Shown here: one piece after another, positions 361-18,992 of the stretch
Position numbering within the stretch: the first letter of the stretch is position 1
How the letters are laid out: the number at the start of each line of letters is the position of its first letter
Assembly (NCBI GenBank): GCA_024958795.1
Contig: JANXHP010000009.1
Location: 1-34,775, forward strand
Reading direction: 5' to 3'
Length of the DNA: 34,775 bases
DNA from: Candidatus Poseidoniaceae archaeon
GTDB taxonomy: Archaea > Thermoplasmatota > Poseidoniia > Poseidoniales > Poseidoniaceae
Translations under genes and position numbers: made by a program
The notes under the pieces: model-generated
The model's database searches: none
The model's input: the letters and a program-made list of their open reading frames with translations, nothing else
What the model was told of the DNA's origin: nothing

Positions 361-2634
361 ATGAGCGCTTGGCAGGAGGGGAGACGCAGTGATGCTGAGC
401 CTTGCCGAGAGCAAGATATTGGTCTGTTTGAAATAACCAATCGCGATGGACGTGCGCGTTTAGGTAGATTGCATACTAAGCATGGAATTCTAGAAACTCC
501 TGCTCTACTACCGGTTATCAATCCAAACATTAGAACAATAGAACCGCGTGAAATGTGGGATAGATACGGTATTTCTGCACTAATTACTAATTCTTATATT
601 ATCTGGAAACATGATAATTTGAAACAACAAGCAATCAGAGATGGTGTCCATTCATTGATTGATTACCCAGGAGTAATAATGACTGATTCGGGTACTTTTC
701 AATCTTACATATATGGGGATGTAGAAGTAGGAGTTGAAGAAATTGTTGAATTCCAAAATAGTATCGGAGTTGATATTGCTACGATGTTAGATGTGTTCAC
801 TAGGCCAGATATGAGTGAGAGTGAAGTAAAAAGCGCAGTTATGGAAACCGCTGAAAGAGCAGCAATCAGTATTCAAACTGCGAAAGATACAATGCTTAAC
901 GGACCAATACAAGGAGGAGTATTCAAAGATCTAAGAATACTTTCTGCCAAAAAAATGGCCAAACATGACTTTTCCATTCACCCAATTGGTGGTATTGTTC
1001 CAATAATGGAGAAGCATATGTACAAAGATTATGTAAAAATAATGCTCTCAACGTTGCCATATTTACCACCAAACCGCCCTGTTCATATGTTTGGCTGTGG
1101 ACATCCGATGCTTTTTCCAATGTCAATTGCATTAGGAGCTGATTTATTTGACTCTGCAGCATATGCATTATTCGCAAAGGATGGAAGGCTTCTAACCCCA
1201 TGGGGTACTGAAAAATTGGCCGAACTTGTTGATTGGCCTATTACAATGCCTTGTGTTGCATATACATCTCCAAATGAGGTTAGAGGTTTAGATTCTGAAG
1301 AACAGGTAAAGATTCTAGCACGATATAATTTAGAAGTTACACTTACAGAATTGGCAAGGTGTAAGCAGGCTGTTCGCGATGGTACTATTTGGAGGCTTGC
1401 AGAAAGGAGAAGCCACCAGCATCCTGCATTACGCGAGGCTTTTTTGTGGATAACAACAAGTCCAAATAAAGCAGGATTATCTGTGGTTGACCTTGAAGAA
1501 TTAGCGATGACTGATCGGGCTGCTGCACGAGAGAGAGATAACACAAGAGGCTCTTGGGAGAACTCTTGGGATTGGATTGTTAGTGCTCAAGAATCACCTA
1601 AAAAAGGAGGAGTTTCATGGGGGGGAGATGATACATATTTCCGTCCACATATTGTTGAAGCAAGAAGGCAACTTACCTCAAGATGGAAGACTCCTGAGCC
1701 AAAAGGAAATGGCTCTGATGATGTACTGATTCTCCATGGAAGACCTGGCCCATGGCGAGAAAGATGTAGCGATTTGATGACTCGCCTAACCCATCATGCT
1801 GAAGGAATGGAAGTGATGATAATGACACCTCTTGGACTGATACCTTACAGTATGGAAGATTTGAATCCTTTTTCCCATGTATCTGGTCCTAGCTGGATTT
1901 GGAGAAGGAAACCTGATTTGCCTTGGATACGAAGGGAATTAGAGCGTTTTGAATTGGGTGATAGAAGAATTATTCTATGCGATTTGGAAGGAGATGGGAT
2001 ACAAGCAAGATGTATGAATACCCTTGTTGAAGCAGGTGTGTTAAAGGCGATAAATGACGAAAATGCCAGTGATATTCCACTAGATACAGAGGGGAGAAGC
2101 ATTGCTATCGATAAAGTTCGTAGACGCCATGTAAGTGACAAAATGACAGTTCTTCTAAATGTTGAACACAGCCTTGCAAGAGAATTATTACAAGATGCCA
2201 CTTTTGTAATCAATCGCCAGGGTAGAATCAAAAATGCGATTTCGTCTTCGGGAAAACATATTGCAAGTCCACGTTTAACCGATGGTGGAATATCATTGAC
2301 TACAGATGGTGCAATTGAATTGCACAGTCATAGAAGAAGAAAAATTCCTACCGGTTTTGATACAACGCAAGCGTGGAATTTCATTGGTGAAGGTCCTGCA
2401 TGGGTCGTAGTAGATGATGATGCAGAACCATTTGTACGCAAAGGAAGGAATGTATTCCATGGCTTTGTTTTGGCTGCTGACCCTTGGATTACCCCTGGCA
2501 GAACATGCCTCATCGTAAATCAAAAGGGTGAATTGCTAGGACATGGACTGTCAAATTGTTGTTCTGAAGAATTTGCAGTATTCAAGAAAGGTATTGCGAT
2601 AAAAACTCGAGATGGTTTGCGTGAAGCCAATTGA
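361..2634 (+). CDS. tgtA: archaeosine tRNA-guanine transglycosylase, zinc site degenerate
   Basis: Replaces guanine-15 in the tRNA D-loop by preQ0, the first tRNA-bound step of archaeosine synthesis. The protein has 757 residues, longer than the roughly 580 of Pyrococcus ArcTGT. The catalytic domain spans about residues 22-340, with the MTDSGTFQS motif (Asp109), GPIQGGVF, HPIGGIVPIME, HMFGCGHP and GADLFDSAAYALFAKDGR (Asp264 in LFDS). A DUF5591-like middle part follows, and a PUA RNA-binding domain closes the chain from about residue 680 (GEGPAWVVVDDDAEPF to VFKKGIAIKTRDG). The usual PCxCxxC...H zinc site is reduced to PCVAYTS with Tyr322 where His is expected. Start at ATG 361 is the only good in-frame start before the conserved GLFEI region; a GGAGGGG at 374 serves no in-frame start. 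Function call is firm; the zinc loss is by-eye. Confidence 0.93.
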   Translation: MSAWQEGRRSDAEPCREQDIGLFEITNRDGRARLGRLHTKHGILETPALLPVINPNIRTIEPREMWDRYGISALITNSYIIWKHDNLKQQAIRDGVHSLIDYPGVIMTDSGTFQSYIYGDVEVGVEEIVEFQNSIGVDIATMLDVFTRPDMSESEVKSAVMETAERAAISIQTAKDTMLNGPIQGGVFKDLRILSAKKMAKHDFSIHPIGGIVPIMEKHMYKDYVKIMLSTLPYLPPNRPVHMFGCGHPMLFPMSIALGADLFDSAAYALFAKDGRLLTPWGTEKLAELVDWPITMPCVAYTSPNEVRGLDSEEQVKILARYNLEVTLTELARCKQAVRDGTIWRLAERRSHQHPALREAFLWITTSPNKAGLSVVDLEELAMTDRAAARERDNTRGSWENSWDWIVSAQESPKKGGVSWGGDDTYFRPHIVEARRQLTSRWKTPEPKGNGSDDVLILHGRPGPWRERCSDLMTRLTHHAEGMEVMIMTPLGLIPYSMEDLNPFSHVSGPSWIWRRKPDLPWIRRELERFELGDRRIILCDLEGDGIQARCMNTLVEAGVLKAINDENASDIPLDTEGRSIAIDKVRRRHVSDKMTVLLNVEHSLARELLQDATFVINRQGRIKNAISSSGKHIASPRLTDGGISLTTDGAIELHSHRRRKIPTGFDTTQAWNFIGEGPAWVVVDDDAEPFVRKGRNVFHGFVLAADPWITPGRTCLIVNQKGELLGHGLSNCCSEEFAVFKKGIAIKTRDGLREAN

Positions 2635-12770: not shown

Positions 12771-13388
12771 TTACTCTTCTTCAAATTCATCAAAAGTGTC
12801 AACCACTTCTAGCATTTCTTTATCCTGGCCAACCATAGATTCTGCATGCTTTTGTTCATCTTCAACATTACTCATGCCAACGAATGGATCTTTTCCATCT
12901 TCAATCATGCATAGTAATCGCCACCTTGGAGCCCATGATAGATGCACATACATTGGTCCAGGCAATAATAGCAAGAACCAAGAAATAACTGATGGAATTT
13001 GCATCATATCAGTTCTATCTATCGTTAACAATGCAAATCCAATGAATGGCATTGGATACAGAATACTACGTGGTGGCGATATTGGGAATCTCTTGAAGAT
13101 TCCAACTAATATTACCGAAGTGATTCCAAGTAATACACAAGCAGCAATCAATAATGCAGAATGAAATAACCAACCACTCATCCACGCCGAAGTTGATTGG
13201 GAAAATTTGTATGGAAGGATTATTGCTATCGAAACTAATAACCCATAAAATCCACCGATATTAGCTGGATGAGATAACCATAAAGGCAATTTTGTAAAAC
13301 GACGTGAAAGCGAAGTTCCCAATAGGGTCTCTCGTTCACTTGTAGCAAGCGATTCGAGGCGGACTTCCCAGTCTGAAGAGGTACTCAT
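12771..13388 (-). CDS. four-helix membrane protein, unknown function
   Basis: 205 residues, not recognised. A polar N-terminus of about 40 residues is followed by four hydrophobic segments (roughly 46-64, 72-98, 108-125, 132-152) and a strongly acidic tail ending in DEFEEE. ATG 13388 is taken over the adjacent TTG at 13391. The promoter region is compact: a TATA-like CTATATTG (minus strand, 13417-13426) and a perfect palindrome at 13399-13412 lie directly upstream, suggesting its own regulated promoter rather than read-through from the gene at 13452. No enzymatic motif is visible. Confidence 0.65.
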   Translation of the reverse strand: MSTSSDWEVRLESLATSERETLLGTSLSRRFTKLPLWLSHPANIGGFYGLLVSIAIILPYKFSQSTSAWMSGWLFHSALLIAACVLLGITSVILVGIFKRFPISPPRSILYPMPFIGFALLTIDRTDMMQIPSVISWFLLLLPGPMYVHLSWAPRWRLLCMIEDGKDPFVGMSNVEDEQKHAESMVGQDKEMLEVVDTFDEFEEE

Positions 13389-13398
13389 CAACTCAATG

Positions 13399-13451: not shown

Positions 13452-14129
13452 TTATTCCTTGCTAAGAAACTTAGCCAGTGGACCTTCAATTTCAATTTCT
13501 TGTTCATCTTCTAACCAAGATCTTTCCAGTAATTCACTATCTTGTTTCTCCCTTATTCTTCTTTCACTATCTTCAGCAATACTTAATTCTTCAACATCTT
13601 CTTGATTAGATAAATTTGCCAAAACTATCGCTTGATTAAGCAACAACATCGAACGTCTAATTTTTGTCGTTATTTTGTGATTCAATGAGAAATGGCCAAT
13701 TCTTGAATAATCTTCATCATCATATACTAAATCAAATCCACCAAGAAGTGTATTCTCAATTAAACGAACTCTAGATTCTTGCAATAATGCCCATTTATTA
13801 TCCGCAGATAACCAAACAAAAACTTGAGCCTCGCCCATCGGTTCATCACTCATTAGCGGATGATTGAAATTTACTGCAAAAGGAATGTTTTTATCCCTAT
13901 TAACAAATGATAAAATAGAAAATGAAAACGATAGAATAACCATCGCCACCAATAGCGTTTTTTCTAAATCAAACGGTGTTAAAAGCAAAAAAATTGAACC
14001 TGAAAAAAGAATTGCGATTATTGCTATTTGGGGCTTTTTTGAATTATTAATATACAACTGTCTTGCTATCATTGTTTCAAAGTATACTTTGGTTGTTGAA
14101 GGCGGTTCATTAAACGAATTAGAAGCCAT
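13452..14129 (-). CDS. two-helix membrane protein with charged C-terminal domain, unknown
   Basis: 225 residues, not recognised. Two closely spaced hydrophobic helices (about 35-53 and 60-77) form a hairpin anchor. A soluble domain of some 100 residues follows (FVWLSADNKWALLQESRVRLIENTL), then a highly charged helical tail with many Glu/Arg (about 170-225). ATG 14129 is preferred over the adjoining TTG. It lies upstream of the other minus-strand membrane gene but is separated by 63 bases carrying that gene's own promoter. It is divergent from the DUF835 operon, with a 191-base shared intergenic region. Confidence 0.6.
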   Translation of the reverse strand: MASNSFNEPPSTTKVYFETMIARQLYINNSKKPQIAIIAILFSGSIFLLLTPFDLEKTLLVAMVILSFSFSILSFVNRDKNIPFAVNFNHPLMSDEPMGEAQVFVWLSADNKWALLQESRVRLIENTLLGGFDLVYDDEDYSRIGHFSLNHKITTKIRRSMLLLNQAIVLANLSNQEDVEELSIAEDSERRIREKQDSELLERSWLEDEQEIEIEGPLAKFLSKE

Positions 14130-14260
14130 CAATCTAACTCATCATCTAATTCCATTTGAAGGTTATGAGCAAGGAATAATTCGCTGTAAGCAATAATTAA
14201 CTCTTGTAAAACTGATTACGGCAATTGCAATAGGTTGCGAAAAACTTCATTCAAGCATCG

Positions 14261-14320: not shown

Positions 14321-16354
14321 ATGGTCGAATTACCTCAAGGAGAAATTGTTGAAGCGCGCCGTGGCGGTGCTGATGCATTGGCTCGTCTGACCAATGATAT
14401 GGCCCGTCTTGGCCGTTCAGGCCACATACGAATTGAGCGCCGCCCAAAAGGAATTATGCCAAGAGTCAGCCAGATCGTTTTGAGAGAAGGTAGGCCAATT
14501 ATCGCACTTCATGAGGCTGAAGTTCTTCTTACTGGATTAGAAGCGTTGCTGGAAATTGAAAGTGATTGTTCTGCACTTGATGCTACAATATCACTTCACG
14601 AACATGAGATTGAAGATATTGATGTAATTGCTAAATTATTTCCATCTGCAGCACTGAACCTTGATGCAGAACATATTTCTAACCACCGTGAAGGAGAAGG
14701 TGAATGGTGGACAAAGGCGAGAATCTTAAAATCAACATGGAAACGTGAAGAGAGACTTCCAGAATTAGAGCCGTCGGTTGAAGTCCCTGAATTTATCCGC
14801 CAAAAAAGTAAAGCTATGCTTGAAAGACATGGTGGCCTTGTTGAAATGCTAAGCCCAGGACAGGGGATAATCTTCGATAGCAGCGACCCTGCAAAATTGT
14901 TCCAACTAACAAGTTCTTTAGCATCCCATGGCAGACCCGTACTCGTAATCTCCCGCCATGAAGTTGAAGAGTTAAATGCCAAATATGACTTACCGATAGA
15001 ATCATGTTCGTGGTTAAGTAATGCAGAAACAGATAATTCTCTTGACCCATCATTAGAAAGCATTAGAATGAAAATTGATGCCTTTTTGTGGGGCAATATT
15101 AGAGCAGTGATTGCTTTTGAAGGATTGGAATATTTAGCCGGAATTCACGGTGATGACCGAATGATTGGAATGATTAGAGATATTTGTGATGGAATAAAGT
15201 TAGAAGATCACCTATTGCTAACCACTGCCGATTTAACTGCATTTGAATTGACAAAACGACAGATGCTAACCCGTGAATTGGATGAGGTAAAGACAGAAAC
15301 AATGGAACATTGGATAATGGAAGATGAGTTATTACTTGACCATCCAATTTGTGCCACTCCAACTGAAGATGAAATTCGATGGGTAGAATCTCAACTGAAA
15401 AAAGCCCTAGGAGACGAAATGATTTCGCAAACTGACGCTGATGATTCAATGCGTGGAATGTCTGGTGGTGCGGAATCATTAGACATTCAAACGATTGGTG
15501 ATGCTGCTGGAAATCTTTCTGCCATGATGCAAGGTTGGGCAGAAGATTCTGAAATTGATGTCGATTCACAGGAATTAACATCACAACCGGAGGTGGCATC
15601 TGCTGTACAAGGGCCGAGTGATGATTGGACTCCAACATTCCATAGTGCAGAAACGGTTGAGCAGGGTATCCCTCTTGAACAACAACCAAACTCATTAGAA
15701 GAAGTTGTTGAGCATGCGATGGTTGATGAAATTGTTGAGCAAGTTCCAGTTGAAACTGCTCCTATCAAAGCAACTGGACCGAGAAAAGCTAATATTATCA
15801 AGAAGACATTGAAGAAAACTATACTCCCTCCTATATTCAATAGAACACATACTATGCAAGCGAATGCTGCGGTTCAGGTTGCAAAGGAATCTCCAAGCCT
15901 TCCAGAACTCATAATTAATGCACAACCTGAAAAACACCTATCGGGATCTATCAAGGAACACGACATTAGGCAAAGAAAGGCATTAGATGAGACATTCCAG
16001 CCAGTCTCTCACGAACAAGACTTAGAACTTCAACAGGCCTCAGTACAATCTGCTGCTAAACGTAATGCAACTCTTCCAGCAACCGGTGATGGACCTAATG
16101 CACTTGATGGGCTCACTGACCTCATGCCCGTTGGTACGGAAACTAACCTAACTCCATCCATGGCTCTAGATTCTGTTGACCTAGCCACACAAAATAGTGA
16201 TGATGTAAGAGAATCTGCAAGCCGTTCGCAATCAGATAAAACGATTGTAGAAATTGTGAAAGAATGGAATGATTTGGGTTCTGCATCATTACTTGATAAT
16301 AGCACCCTATATGACCTTGAAGGAAATGCCATTGAACGCTACGGAGACCAGTGA
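14321..16354 (+). CDS. DUF835-domain protein with long disordered C-terminus
   Basis: 677 residues. The N-terminal module (about 10-90: LARLTNDMARLGRSGHIRIERR...LREGRPIIALHEAEVLLTGLEAL) looks like an effector-type domain with a 'more input, better access' beta pattern, not firmly identified. Residues about 171-325 match DUF835: GIIFDSSDPAKLFQL, GRPVLVISRHEVEEL, ESCSWLSN, AVIAFEGLEYLAGIHG, DHLLLTTADLTAFELTKRQMLTREL. DUF835 occurs mainly in archaeal signalling proteins, and its role is unknown. Residues 350-677 are acidic, low complexity and probably disordered. No kinase or receiver domain and no membrane helix. The stop overlaps the start of the DnaA-like gene (GTGA), implying a shared complex or pathway. 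Confidence 0.75.
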   Translation: MVELPQGEIVEARRGGADALARLTNDMARLGRSGHIRIERRPKGIMPRVSQIVLREGRPIIALHEAEVLLTGLEALLEIESDCSALDATISLHEHEIEDIDVIAKLFPSAALNLDAEHISNHREGEGEWWTKARILKSTWKREERLPELEPSVEVPEFIRQKSKAMLERHGGLVEMLSPGQGIIFDSSDPAKLFQLTSSLASHGRPVLVISRHEVEELNAKYDLPIESCSWLSNAETDNSLDPSLESIRMKIDAFLWGNIRAVIAFEGLEYLAGIHGDDRMIGMIRDICDGIKLEDHLLLTTADLTAFELTKRQMLTRELDEVKTETMEHWIMEDELLLDHPICATPTEDEIRWVESQLKKALGDEMISQTDADDSMRGMSGGAESLDIQTIGDAAGNLSAMMQGWAEDSEIDVDSQELTSQPEVASAVQGPSDDWTPTFHSAETVEQGIPLEQQPNSLEEVVEHAMVDEIVEQVPVETAPIKATGPRKANIIKKTLKKTILPPIFNRTHTMQANAAVQVAKESPSLPELIINAQPEKHLSGSIKEHDIRQRKALDETFQPVSHEQDLELQQASVQSAAKRNATLPATGDGPNALDGLTDLMPVGTETNLTPSMALDSVDLATQNSDDVRESASRSQSDKTIVEIVKEWNDLGSASLLDNSTLYDLEGNAIERYGDQ

Positions 16355-18537
16355 GTATGATTGGCAGGAAAGAACGGCTTGACCTTGCAATTCAGAAGGC
16401 TAAGAATCAATTAGTTCAAAATGGTGTAGGTAACCTGCAATTTCCACAAGAAAAAATTGCAAAAAAGGAAAAATCAACATTACCGTTGTCCAAAATGAAT
16501 CGCTTGCTTGGAAAATCAACAATTACTGATACTCGCAATAGCAGCATCTTGCAACGTACAGGAGTTGCACAACGACCTACCTTTGATTTGATTGCTGATG
16601 CTAATTTAGGTCAGGAAAGTAGAAGGCACAAACCTGTAATAAATCTACAAGATGATGGAATGGACTTTGCTGGAATTGCTGCAAGACGGATAAAATCACT
16701 AAGAGAAACTAGCCTCAGTTATTCAGAGGAATTAGCGCTGAAGGAAGAGAGCAATGACGAATATGTGGGTATCGAAGTTGATGCTAGACCTGTTTGGCTA
16801 GGCATACTTGATGAGCAAAGAGGTAGAGTAACCAATACTCTATCCGATGATTTAGCACCTGTAGGGGAAGATTCAATTTTCCACCATGGCCGTTCACTAA
16901 ATGTTAAGGCAGAATGGCCAAAACCCTTGACTATTGACACTCATCGAACATTCAAACAGTGGTTTGTTTGTCCTGAAAATGCAAATGCTAGTAGAGCCTG
17001 TGAATCAATTGTTGATTCTCCTGGAACACTTCTCAATCCTTTACTAATCATTGGAGAAAGTGGAACCGGTCGTTCACATTTGATTCATGCAACAGCTCAA
17101 GGTGTAGCAAGACGAATGGAAGGATTGGTATTCTTGATTAGTGCTGTTGATTTGATTGGTATGGAAACTCTTCCAAATAATTGGCAGGAAGCATTGGTCG
17201 GGGCGAGCCTATTAGCAATTGATGATGCACATATTATTGCAGACGATGTATTGCTAGCCACACAAATCGGGCAAATGATAGACCATGCAATCAACTTGGG
17301 AGTACATGTGATTTTAACAAGTCTAGATTCACCAGAAGAATGGCCTTCTTCACGACTTTGGGATATTTGTCGCAATTCTGCACAAACTCATCTTCAAGTT
17401 CCGACTGCAACAAGTTTGGTGATGTTTACTAGACGATTAGCTGGTTCAAGAAATCTGATGTTAGACGATGGTCAAATGGCCAGCATTGTCACATACAACC
17501 ATATTGGCTGGAGAAGTACTATTGCCAATTTTGACAAGATCGCACTTGCAGTTGAATCAGGAGATGACATAGTTGATGGTGAAGATGTTATTCACGCTCT
17601 AAGTGAGAAGTCAACACGCACAACCGAAAAAGAAAATAAAATCGTTCACCAAAATGTTGGTGATATCGCAACTAGATTGATATCTAACGCAGTTGATACT
17701 GTCTATTCGGAACATGATATTGGTGGAATTGACCTAGAGCGCGAAATTCCTGACCTAGGAGATGACGATTATTCGCCACCTCAATGGAATGTTAATGAAA
17801 TGGCGATGGAAGGTGAGGAAATGCTTGAGAAGTATGTTCATACATCACTTGAAGAATTAACACCTGAAGCACCTTCTGTATTGAGTATTCATGAAAATGA
17901 ACAACACCTTGTTACACGTCCGAATCGTATTGAAGAACAAGATTACGGTCGTGCTGCGGATATTTTGACTGAATTAGATGACATGATAGATGACAAAATA
18001 AGAGACACTGAATTAGATGTTTTCAATAACTCAGAACTTCTCATTGAACTCGAAGATAAGATGCTTGAATTGGCACAAAAAGCAGGTGATGCTGATATTG
18101 AAGAATTGATATTGATTGCAGATGAATTGCGCTATCTTGAAGAAAAACTAGTGGAAATAGATCCTGAAAGAGAACCACTTCCACCATTTGAAGAGGACAA
18201 AAAACAGCGCAAAATTCCAAAGAGAAGTAAGGGTAAATCAAAGAGAAAGGTTGCTCGACGTGCACCAAAAAGGAAAAAAGAAGTGCTAGAAGAAGATTTT
18301 GAAAAATCACTAGATAGTTTTGAGCCGGAAGGTGAATGGGATATTGAAGCTGATGATGTTGACATGAATGATTTGTTAGTTGATTCTGATGTGGATGTGG
18401 AAGAAGATGAAACTACAGTTACAGAAAAAATTATTCGGACAATAAAAACACCAATGGATGTAGTCGATGATGTTGTCGATGCACCCCCGCAATTGAGATT
18501 ACACATCAGTAGACCAACTTCAGGGGAAGAGGAATGA
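16351..18537 (+). CDS. DnaA-related AAA+ protein, variant Walker A, no DNA-binding domain IV
   Basis: 728 residues. Residues about 205-400 align by eye with the bacterial DnaA AAA+ domain: TFKQWFVCPENANASRA (DnaA 'tFdnFvvG.sN..A'), NPLLIIGESGTGRSHLIHAT (DnaA NPLFIYGGxGLGKTHLLHA), Walker B LLAIDDAHII (Asp291-Asp292), sensor-1 region VILTSLDSPEEW, and a sensor-2-like GWRSTIANF. Arg241 replaces the Walker A lysine, and the box VII SRF motif is absent, so ATP hydrolysis may be weak or lost. There is no DnaA domain IV helix-turn-helix. Instead an acidic coiled-coil region (about 525-610) leads to a Lys/Arg-rich patch (about 617-646) and an acidic tail. The start is GTG 16351 (ATG 16357 also possible). 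It is flanked in operon by DUF835 and YkgJ-type genes. Confidence 0.72.
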   Translation: MSMIGRKERLDLAIQKAKNQLVQNGVGNLQFPQEKIAKKEKSTLPLSKMNRLLGKSTITDTRNSSILQRTGVAQRPTFDLIADANLGQESRRHKPVINLQDDGMDFAGIAARRIKSLRETSLSYSEELALKEESNDEYVGIEVDARPVWLGILDEQRGRVTNTLSDDLAPVGEDSIFHHGRSLNVKAEWPKPLTIDTHRTFKQWFVCPENANASRACESIVDSPGTLLNPLLIIGESGTGRSHLIHATAQGVARRMEGLVFLISAVDLIGMETLPNNWQEALVGASLLAIDDAHIIADDVLLATQIGQMIDHAINLGVHVILTSLDSPEEWPSSRLWDICRNSAQTHLQVPTATSLVMFTRRLAGSRNLMLDDGQMASIVTYNHIGWRSTIANFDKIALAVESGDDIVDGEDVIHALSEKSTRTTEKENKIVHQNVGDIATRLISNAVDTVYSEHDIGGIDLEREIPDLGDDDYSPPQWNVNEMAMEGEEMLEKYVHTSLEELTPEAPSVLSIHENEQHLVTRPNRIEEQDYGRAADILTELDDMIDDKIRDTELDVFNNSELLIELEDKMLELAQKAGDADIEELILIADELRYLEEKLVEIDPEREPLPPFEEDKKQRKIPKRSKGKSKRKVARRAPKRKKEVLEEDFEKSLDSFEPEGEWDIEADDVDMNDLLVDSDVDVEEDETTVTEKIIRTIKTPMDVVDDVVDAPPQLRLHISRPTSGEEE

Positions 18538-18992
18538 AACCTTGGTGGATGAACGGTATTCCGTTCAAATGTCAATCTGATTGTGGCAAGTGTTGTGATG
18601 AACCAGGTGGAATTGTATATCTCTCAGAAAAAGATGCAGTGAGAATCTCTGCGCATCATGAGATGGATGTCAAAAGTTGGTTGAAAAGAGATTGTAAACA
18701 AACACTTGATGGAAGATATATTCTGCAAAGTAGAGAAGTTGATGACATTTGTATATATTTAGATGATAACAAGCAATGTATGATCTACAAAGCCAGGCCG
18801 CAACAATGTGCTGCATTTCCTTGGTGGGGAGAAAATCTTGCAACTGAAAGATCTTGGAATCGAGTGGTTAATGAATGCCCAGGCCTTAGTGCTGATGATG
18901 CGATATTAATCGATGGGAATAGTATTAGAATACAGATATTTTCTGATAGAGAATCGAGTAAGGGTTTTCGTCAGTGGCCAGCAAATCGATAA
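18534..18992 (+). CDS. YkgJ-type cysteine cluster protein
   Basis: 152 residues. The pattern C13-x3-C17-x2-C20-C21 (FKCQSDCGKCC), then DDICIYLDDNKQCMIYKARPQQCAAFPWW, matches the YkgJ/CxxCxxCC family, whose cysteines are thought to hold a zinc or iron-sulphur centre. Exact function is not known for the family. Its ATG overlaps the DnaA-like gene's stop (ATGA), making it the third gene of that operon. Position and motif are clear; the role in the operon is unknown. Confidence 0.85.
   Translation: MKPWWMNGIPFKCQSDCGKCCDEPGGIVYLSEKDAVRISAHHEMDVKSWLKRDCKQTLDGRYILQSREVDDICIYLDDNKQCMIYKARPQQCAAFPWWGENLATERSWNRVVNECPGLSADDAILIDGNSIRIQIFSDRESSKGFRQWPANR

Follow-up and report, generated by a model that had tools for sequence, protein, structure and literature searches.

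Introduction

Textbooks treat DnaA as a marker of Bacteria; archaea are described as relying on Orc1/Cdc6, an AAA+ clade of replication initiators. We have analysed a 34,775-nucleotide stretch of DNA (the window, positions 1-34,775 of contig JANXHP010000009.1, assembly GCA_024958795.1) from a Candidatus Poseidoniaceae archaeon (Poseidoniales, Marine Group II), in which one gene, here called gene B (16351..18537, plus strand, GTG start, stop codon counted in), encodes a 728-aa AAA+ protein resembling domain III of DnaA. The archaeal 'DnaA-like' proteins described in PMC4158269 and PMC6563490 are viral. Hda is described, in PMC5742627, as acting in its ADP-bound form, the form bound by the clamp-DNA complex. 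DUF835, the domain carried by the neighbour of gene B, is an inactivated KaiC-like domain, named iKaiC in PMC5847659, which reports its fusion to receiver domains in Methanomicrobia and Thermoplasmata.

On balance we favour a reading in which gene B and the upstream gene A would each encode one subunit of a signalling or scaffold complex, the gene B product being its DnaA-derived AAA+ subunit and largely a pseudo-ATPase. Loci, genomes, families and clades are given L, G, f and g numbers, respectively, and f1 is the window's own family.

Results

A DnaA-type AAA+ domain in gene B

The best Pfam match to the gene B protein is Bac_DnaA (PF00308), which covers residues 197-330 (E = 2.8e-10, 41 bits, cut-off 23). 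Together with a profile of Poseidoniales domains and a motif alignment, this match delimits an AAA+ core at about residues 197-400 (16939..17550, on the plus strand like all features of gene B). The core holds Walker A GESGTGRS (residues 235-242, 17053..17076, with Arg241 at 17071-17073), Walker B LLAIDD with both Asp kept (residues 287-292, 17209..17226), and a sensor-2 residue, Arg388 (17512..17514), which aligns with Arg334 of Escherichia coli DnaA. A first-pass annotation of the window had given the gene coordinates, Arg241 in Walker A, a Walker B and a sensor-2-like arginine, and these proved right (GESGTGRSH with Arg241, LLAIDD, Arg388). It had also noted that domain IV is missing from gene B, which was borne out: no match to PF08299, the helix-turn-helix domain IV of DnaA, was obtained in Pfam up to E = 1, and across the phylum none of 284 genomes had PF08299 over its cut-off (G052 gave a single weak match), with 10 bacterial control genomes over it.

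Searches of NCBIfam matched gene B to DnaA (TIGR00362, 2.1e-14) and Hda (2e-9), both far under the equivalog cut-offs, the Hda score of 37.3 bits not passing the required 194.8. Five sequences of solved structures matched at E up to 1, all of them DnaA. IstB (PF01695) was not matched in Pfam up to E = 1, and Orc1/Cdc6 (TIGR02928) was absent among NCBIfam matches at E up to 0.1. The closest named relatives, at 74-78% identity, are Poseidoniaceae, Poseidoniales or 'Euryarchaeota' archaea. Beyond the core lies a further conserved stretch at about residues 524-606 (17920..18168; bounds and helical look judged by eye), in which D591 is invariant and L564 and L586 are nearly so across 19 diverse orthologues.

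A PF00308 match is insufficient by itself, because an IstB protein of the same phylum receives 39 bits, as against 41 for gene B, and because PF00308 is over its cut-off in 13 of 14 control genomes, three of these being archaea. From the loci we gathered 99 family open reading frames (ORFs), 91 once identical or contained rows were removed, and built a profile from 65 Poseidoniales domains alone, keeping L090 out. This profile scores E. coli DnaA at 103.8 bits, DnaC at 27.9, Hda at 23.6 and two IstB proteins at 23.1 and 13.7. It has no match to the genome's own Orc1/Cdc6 (-1.6 bits; identity confirmed by Cdc6 domains) or to the 'DnaA-like' protein of the SSV1 virus (CDS 191-946; -0.5 bits). 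Since DnaA scores far above DnaC, Hda, IstB and Orc1/Cdc6, the kinship of the gene B domain, as judged by profile, is with DnaA itself. Kinship with Orc1/Cdc6, DnaC, IstB, Hda or the SSV-type protein was ruled out by this comparison. The first-pass annotation had proposed setting the domain against DnaA, Hda, DnaC and Orc1/Cdc6 profiles, and the outcome places it nearest to DnaA domain III and not to another AAA+ clade.

In a tree that includes E. coli Hda and omits L057 as a fragment, all 65 Poseidoniales rows fall on one side of a long branch (support 99/100). Because long branches meet in this tree, Hda joining L143 and others, we used it to follow Lys states inside Poseidoniales and not for deep placement. 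A phage collection yielded 13 records with weak partial matches; among the 10 listed, both that are annotated at the match are DnaA.

A DUF835 partner, in a separate gene in Poseidoniales and fused elsewhere

Directly upstream of gene B lies gene A (14321..16354, plus strand), which encodes a 677-aa protein made up of an N-terminal domain (residues 1-125, 14321..14695, plus strand) and a DUF835 domain recognised by Pfam (14894..15280, plus strand; PF05763, E = 9.8e-13). The N-terminal domain, which is also N-terminal in many other Thermoplasmatota DnaA-type proteins, has no good Pfam match (DUF2226 touches three of 15 members, best 5e-4); in its look it may resemble PATAN/DUF4388 domains. The stop of gene A and the start of gene B share the 4-bp sequence GTGA (16351..16354, plus strand). 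Among 33 neighbourhood loci, which include close relatives, 23 show an overlap of exactly 4 bp, 30 overlap to some extent and three have a gap (first-start ORFs).

Gene B was found in 86 of the 145 genomes of the order, many of which are incomplete, and the count was the same by single sequence and by a 19-row profile. By family, it is present in 71 of 72 f1 genomes and in 15 of 73 f2 genomes, the latter figure including the odd G090. Gene A adjoins gene B in 80 of the 86, a count that omits weak second matches to another, distinct DUF835 protein (about 300 aa), the sole kind in G103 and G030. Adjacency is thus near-constant, with six exceptions: G039 and G093 (the two on different contigs), G131 (match near a contig start), G118 and G103 (both with partial gene B matches) and the odd G090. 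G035 has a partial gene A only. We rejected contamination by a bacterial contig as the source of gene B because the gene recurs in 71/72 f1 genomes with a conserved neighbourhood. The odd row of the f2 genome G090 is a lone DnaA-like frame (L090, 2597-3967, minus strand) that carries the E. coli motif set and groups with E. coli DnaA, and it may represent contamination or a recent transfer.

The DnaA-type domain recurs patchily in at least 12 Thermoplasmatota families besides Poseidoniales. We studied 20 non-Poseidoniales loci from 12 families, out of 25 available (L038, L042, L047, L051 and L057 were left out). In eight proteins scanned, the DnaA-type domain matches TIGR00362 with E values of 1.6e-45 to 1.4e-99. 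DUF835 is fused C-terminally to the DnaA domain in 12 of the 20 loci, representing eight families, and Pfam confirms it in all eight scanned. The N-terminal domain of the gene A type stands at the protein N-terminus in 12 loci (profile i-E 2.5e-16 to 2.1e-4, and by alignment). Both modules occur together in ten loci, with the N-terminal domain only in L103 and L104 and DUF835 only in L121 and L122. These proteins also have long charged stretches with a coiled-coil look by eye, and zinc-ribbon matches that are weak and over cut-off in L104 only. Because the same N-terminal domain and DUF835 are fused with the DnaA domain elsewhere, the Poseidoniales pair corresponds in architecture to the fused protein, its AAA+ module now standing in a gene of its own.

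Other arrangements suit sensing rather than origin firing. In family f20, a signal-like start leads into an Fn3-like region and what looks by eye like a membrane segment, and an intact DnaA-type domain comes after these; fn3 reaches 26.4 bits in L107 (cut-off 25) and stays under the cut-off in L105. The next two genes in L105 encode a KaiC (4.7e-37) and a 7TM-DUF835 protein. DUF835 itself is abundant in Thermoplasmatota: of 100 genomes searched from the class of G279, 90 contain it, with up to 36 matches per genome, and the window genome has two. A large expansion was seen in G331 and G333 of family f43, with 31 and 36 matches, respectively.

Loss of ATPase motifs in Poseidoniales

Motifs were aligned in E. 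coli DnaA numbering for 53 f1 rows, 12 f2 rows and 29 rows from other Thermoplasmatota. The Lys178 column of Walker A holds R29 K15 C8 G1 in f1, whereas Lys is present in 12/12 f2 rows and 29/29 rows from other Thermoplasmatota. The Arg finger, Arg285, is Arg in none of the 65 Poseidoniales rows (Ile in the window) and R24 K3 C2 in the other Thermoplasmatota. The sensor-1 Asp269 is present in one f1 row, two f2 rows and 24 of the 29 others, and so is absent from 62 of 65 Poseidoniales rows. The distance between Walker A and Walker B is 48-53 residues for Poseidoniales; of the 29 other Thermoplasmatota rows, 27 have 55-58 and two have 42, and the value is 57 for DnaA and 46 for Hda. The shorter spacing in Poseidoniales means that the second helix forming the initiator-specific motif is missing, and this motif is lost in 65/65 rows. 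Other positions are better kept: of the Walker B residues, Asp235 in 61 and Asp236 in 63 of the 65 Poseidoniales rows, the sensor-2 Arg334 as Arg in 41/53 f1 and three of 12 f2 rows, and the box VII Arg281 as Arg in the window, 48/53 f1 and six of 12 f2 rows. The first-pass annotation had called the box VII SRF absent; this holds for its Arg finger, but the Arg aligned with Arg281 is retained.

Arg241 within GESGTGRSH, encoded by CGT or CGC, is invariant across the window and its five closest relatives. In the sister clade g2, Cys or Gly replaces the Walker A Lys and the first P-loop Gly is also lost (SEVHAGCS, AEPQSGCS). On the tree, Arg is the state of clade g1, of L085/L087 and of L077, which sits among rows with Lys. 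Clade g2 and L019 have Cys or Gly, and two rows within g1 carry Lys, L028 (GKT) and L069 (GKS). Because the Lys label needs six changes on the whole tree, five of them forced by well-supported branches, the Walker A Lys was lost on more than one occasion, probably on three, or was first lost and later regained. The first-pass annotation had laid weight on Arg241, had asked whether it is conserved, and had named close relatives with an intact GKT or GKS as counter-evidence. Its conservation extends to the five closest relatives but not to the family or to f2, same-genus relatives with GKT (L028) and GKS (L069) do exist, and E. coli Hda has the same Arg; the stress on this residue is weakened as a result.

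Purifying selection on gene B

Compared with L002-L006, residues 191-430 of gene B have dN/dS values of 0.05-0.08, at synonymous sites that are near saturation (pS 0.62-0.70), and residues 621-728 have values of 0.24-0.31. Other parts of the protein are at times more constrained than the AAA+ core: residues 191-430 are the region with the lowest dN/dS in three of five comparisons, a C-terminal region being lower for L005 and L006, and the four close pairs of L002-L005 give the AAA+ region values of 0.11-0.15, which are not their lowest. Purifying selection acts on the AAA+ region, and the loss of catalytic residues therefore does not amount to decay of the gene.

The Poseidoniales neighbourhood

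The end of gene B overlaps a gene for a CxxCxxCC putative metal-chelating protein (18534..18992, plus strand; PF03692), which neighbours gene B on the same strand in 22 and on the opposite strand in seven of the 33 loci. On the other side of gene A lie two conserved divergent genes, of 226 aa (13455..14132, minus strand; 30/33 loci) and 206 aa (12774..13391, minus strand; 27/33 loci), both always on the opposite strand. Neither matches any family of Pfam or NCBIfam at E values up to 0.001, and both show hydrophobic segments by eye. Further away in the window (361-2634, plus strand) is the archaeosine tRNA-guanine transglycosylase TgtA, of 757 aa and above its equivalog cut-off.

Discussion

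A two-gene signalling or scaffold complex, the reading we favour for genes A and B, rests on the DnaA-type domain, its fusion elsewhere, the adjacency of the two genes, the motif losses and the purifying selection. Such a complex would require the products of genes A and B to bind to one another. In the ancestral protein, an intact AAA+ module would have responded to ATP by switching or by forming oligomers, and DUF835 would have received its state; the Poseidoniaceae would then have lost the ATP-dependent DnaA-like filament, leaving the module as a docking platform, possibly one that binds ADP. We also propose, tentatively though as quite a plausible history, that the ATPase of the bacterial initiator was captured and fused with iKaiC and the N-terminal domain as an ATP-controlled signalling switch of a new kind, in a widespread archaeal family, and that Marine Group II split it into two coupled genes and made a pseudo-ATPase scaffold of it, the Walker A Lys disappearing in more than one lineage. 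The first-pass annotation had suspected a DnaA-fold module reused for another job, an idea that is upheld by the nearness to DnaA domain III, the lack of domain IV, the presence of Orc1/Cdc6 throughout the order and the recurrent DUF835 partner. The fused relatives and this partner are more informative than Arg241.

Several observations weigh against the complex that we favour. The DUF835 link is not universal, because six of the 20 other loci (L105-L109, L112) lack the N-terminal domain as well as a fused DUF835; in L105 a DUF835 gene lies nearby. The genes conserved around the Poseidoniales pair carry no recognised function, and no two-component domain was found in the Pfam-scanned genes of the window. 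Furthermore, the Walker B motif is kept, as are the sensor-2 Arg in most f1 rows and the Walker A Lys in 15/53 f1 and all f2 rows, which means that nucleotide binding may not be lost. Finally, five of the 20 other loci adjoin genes of the gyrB/gyrA cluster (Pfam check: L117 only), and L113 and L114 share an adjoining gene of the Rad51/KaiC fold (Pfam: L113 only); these neighbours may reflect shared synteny or a link to DNA metabolism. In L117 (3-5325, minus strand), the gyrA and gyrB frames near the fused DnaA-DUF835 gene both contain intein splicing domains.

The retained residues bear on a reading in which the protein is a nucleotide sensor, Arg standing in for Lys as in Hda, that reports the ADP/ATP state to gene A without hydrolysis. 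This we regard as possible, if on the less probable side. E. coli Hda has Arg at the same place within the same words, GRSHLLHA (AREGAGRSHLLHA), and its sequence reads AREGAGRSHLLHAACAEL, the Lys-to-Arg substitution seen in gene B. By this analogy, Arg at the Walker A Lys is compatible with nucleotide binding in a DnaA relative, and because Hda has the same Arg and is described as ADP-bound (PMC5742627), Arg241 alone does not imply that binding is lost. The mostly kept Walker B DD and sensor-2 Arg of f1 and the purifying selection on the AAA+ region fit a sensor as well. It is disfavoured by g2, with its Cys or Gly and lost first P-loop Gly, though Hda also lacks that Gly (AREGAGRS), and by the near-complete absence of the sensor-1 Asp. 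The neighbouring gyr and Rad51/KaiC-fold genes would instead fit a regulator of replication or DNA topology, a DnaA-type module whose target would be Orc1/Cdc6, the clamp or gyrase, as DnaA is the target of Hda, and so would the descent of the domain from a replication protein and the GRSHLLHA and short Walker spacing shared with E. coli Hda (46, as against mostly 50). We consider such a regulator unlikely. The Arg finger of the Hda type is missing from every Poseidoniales row, and there is seemingly no full DnaA in the phylum for an Hda-like protein to act on, because domain IV is over its cut-off in none of the 284 genomes. A search with a simple PCNA-type box pattern, not the bacterial clamp motif itself, left gene B unmatched and hit two of 99 family rows (L052, L090), neither of them a Poseidoniales two-gene protein. 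Gene B was not found in 59 of the 145 order genomes, the best Orc1 match in the one-contig genome G002 is about 308 kb away from it, and the f20 module sits on an apparently membrane-anchored protein.

The same distribution bears on whether gene B could be a working archaeal replication initiator of the DnaA type, which we find scarcely credible. Relatives do reach 1.4e-99 and 334 bits against TIGR00362, whose cut-off is 343.9, but in the eight scanned proteins the matches break off between positions 337 and 351 of the 437-position profile, domain IV is absent, and Poseidoniales have neither the Arg finger nor the initiator-specific motif. Orc1/Cdc6 (TIGR02928) was found in 145/145 genomes of the order, 143 of them over the cut-off, and gene B goes unfound in 59. 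A DnaA initiator role for gene B was rejected on these counts of domain IV, Orc1/Cdc6 and gene B. It is also very improbable that gene B is a decaying relic without function. Its catalytic residues were lost more than once, and six of the 21 genera of the order yield no gene B match (seven without the odd G090), but the AAA+ region has low dN/dS both against L002-L006 and in close pairs, the overlap with gene A is conserved, and the frames are free of internal stops in 71/72 f1 genomes, several being cut by contig ends.

If genes A and B form one machine, they would offer an example of an initiator ATPase turned into a signalling part. The natural Lys/Arg/Cys/Gly series at the P-loop, with the Arg finger already gone, would be a ready test of what stays useful in a fading ATPase. 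Such genes also invite the wrong label "chromosomal replication initiator DnaA" in annotation. In the open full-text literature we found no description of a DnaA-DUF835 link or of cellular DnaA-domain proteins in Thermoplasmatota or Marine Group II, which, with subscription journals mostly outside its scope, is weak evidence of novelty.

Comparison with known systems

Gene B resembles bacterial DnaA domain III in its TF..F-type lead, NPL(L/F)I, Walker A followed by HLLHA, Walker B DD and sensor-2 Arg. Unlike DnaA, the Poseidoniales protein lacks domain IV, the initiator-specific motif, the Arg finger and mostly the sensor-1 Asp, and it is linked to DUF835. With E. coli Hda it shares Arg at the Walker A Lys, GRSHLLHA, the short Walker A-B spacing and the lack of domain IV, whereas Hda still has Arg in the Arg-finger column and Asp in the sensor-1 column and is far more distant by profile (23.6 bits, as against 103.8 for DnaA). 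The family differs from Orc1/Cdc6 in having no profile match to the genome's own Orc1/Cdc6. IstB, the helper ATPase of IS21, also matches PF00308 (39 bits) but reaches only 23.1 and 13.7 bits with the Poseidoniales profile, and gene B is without PF01695. The SSV-type viral 'DnaA-like' ATPase (arCOG07960; PMC4158269) has the name and the archaeal hosts in common with gene B and no sequence match (-0.5 bits for SSV1).

Like the archaeal iKaiC signalling proteins of PMC5847659, gene A carries DUF835; that paper reports receiver or PAS fusions, and DnaA is absent from its main text. Gene B belongs with the Thermoplasmatota DnaA-DUF835 group, its DUF835 and N-terminal domain being linked to it through the adjacent gene, and belongs neither to DnaA nor to Hda. 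What is new here is a known ATPase domain in a new architecture.

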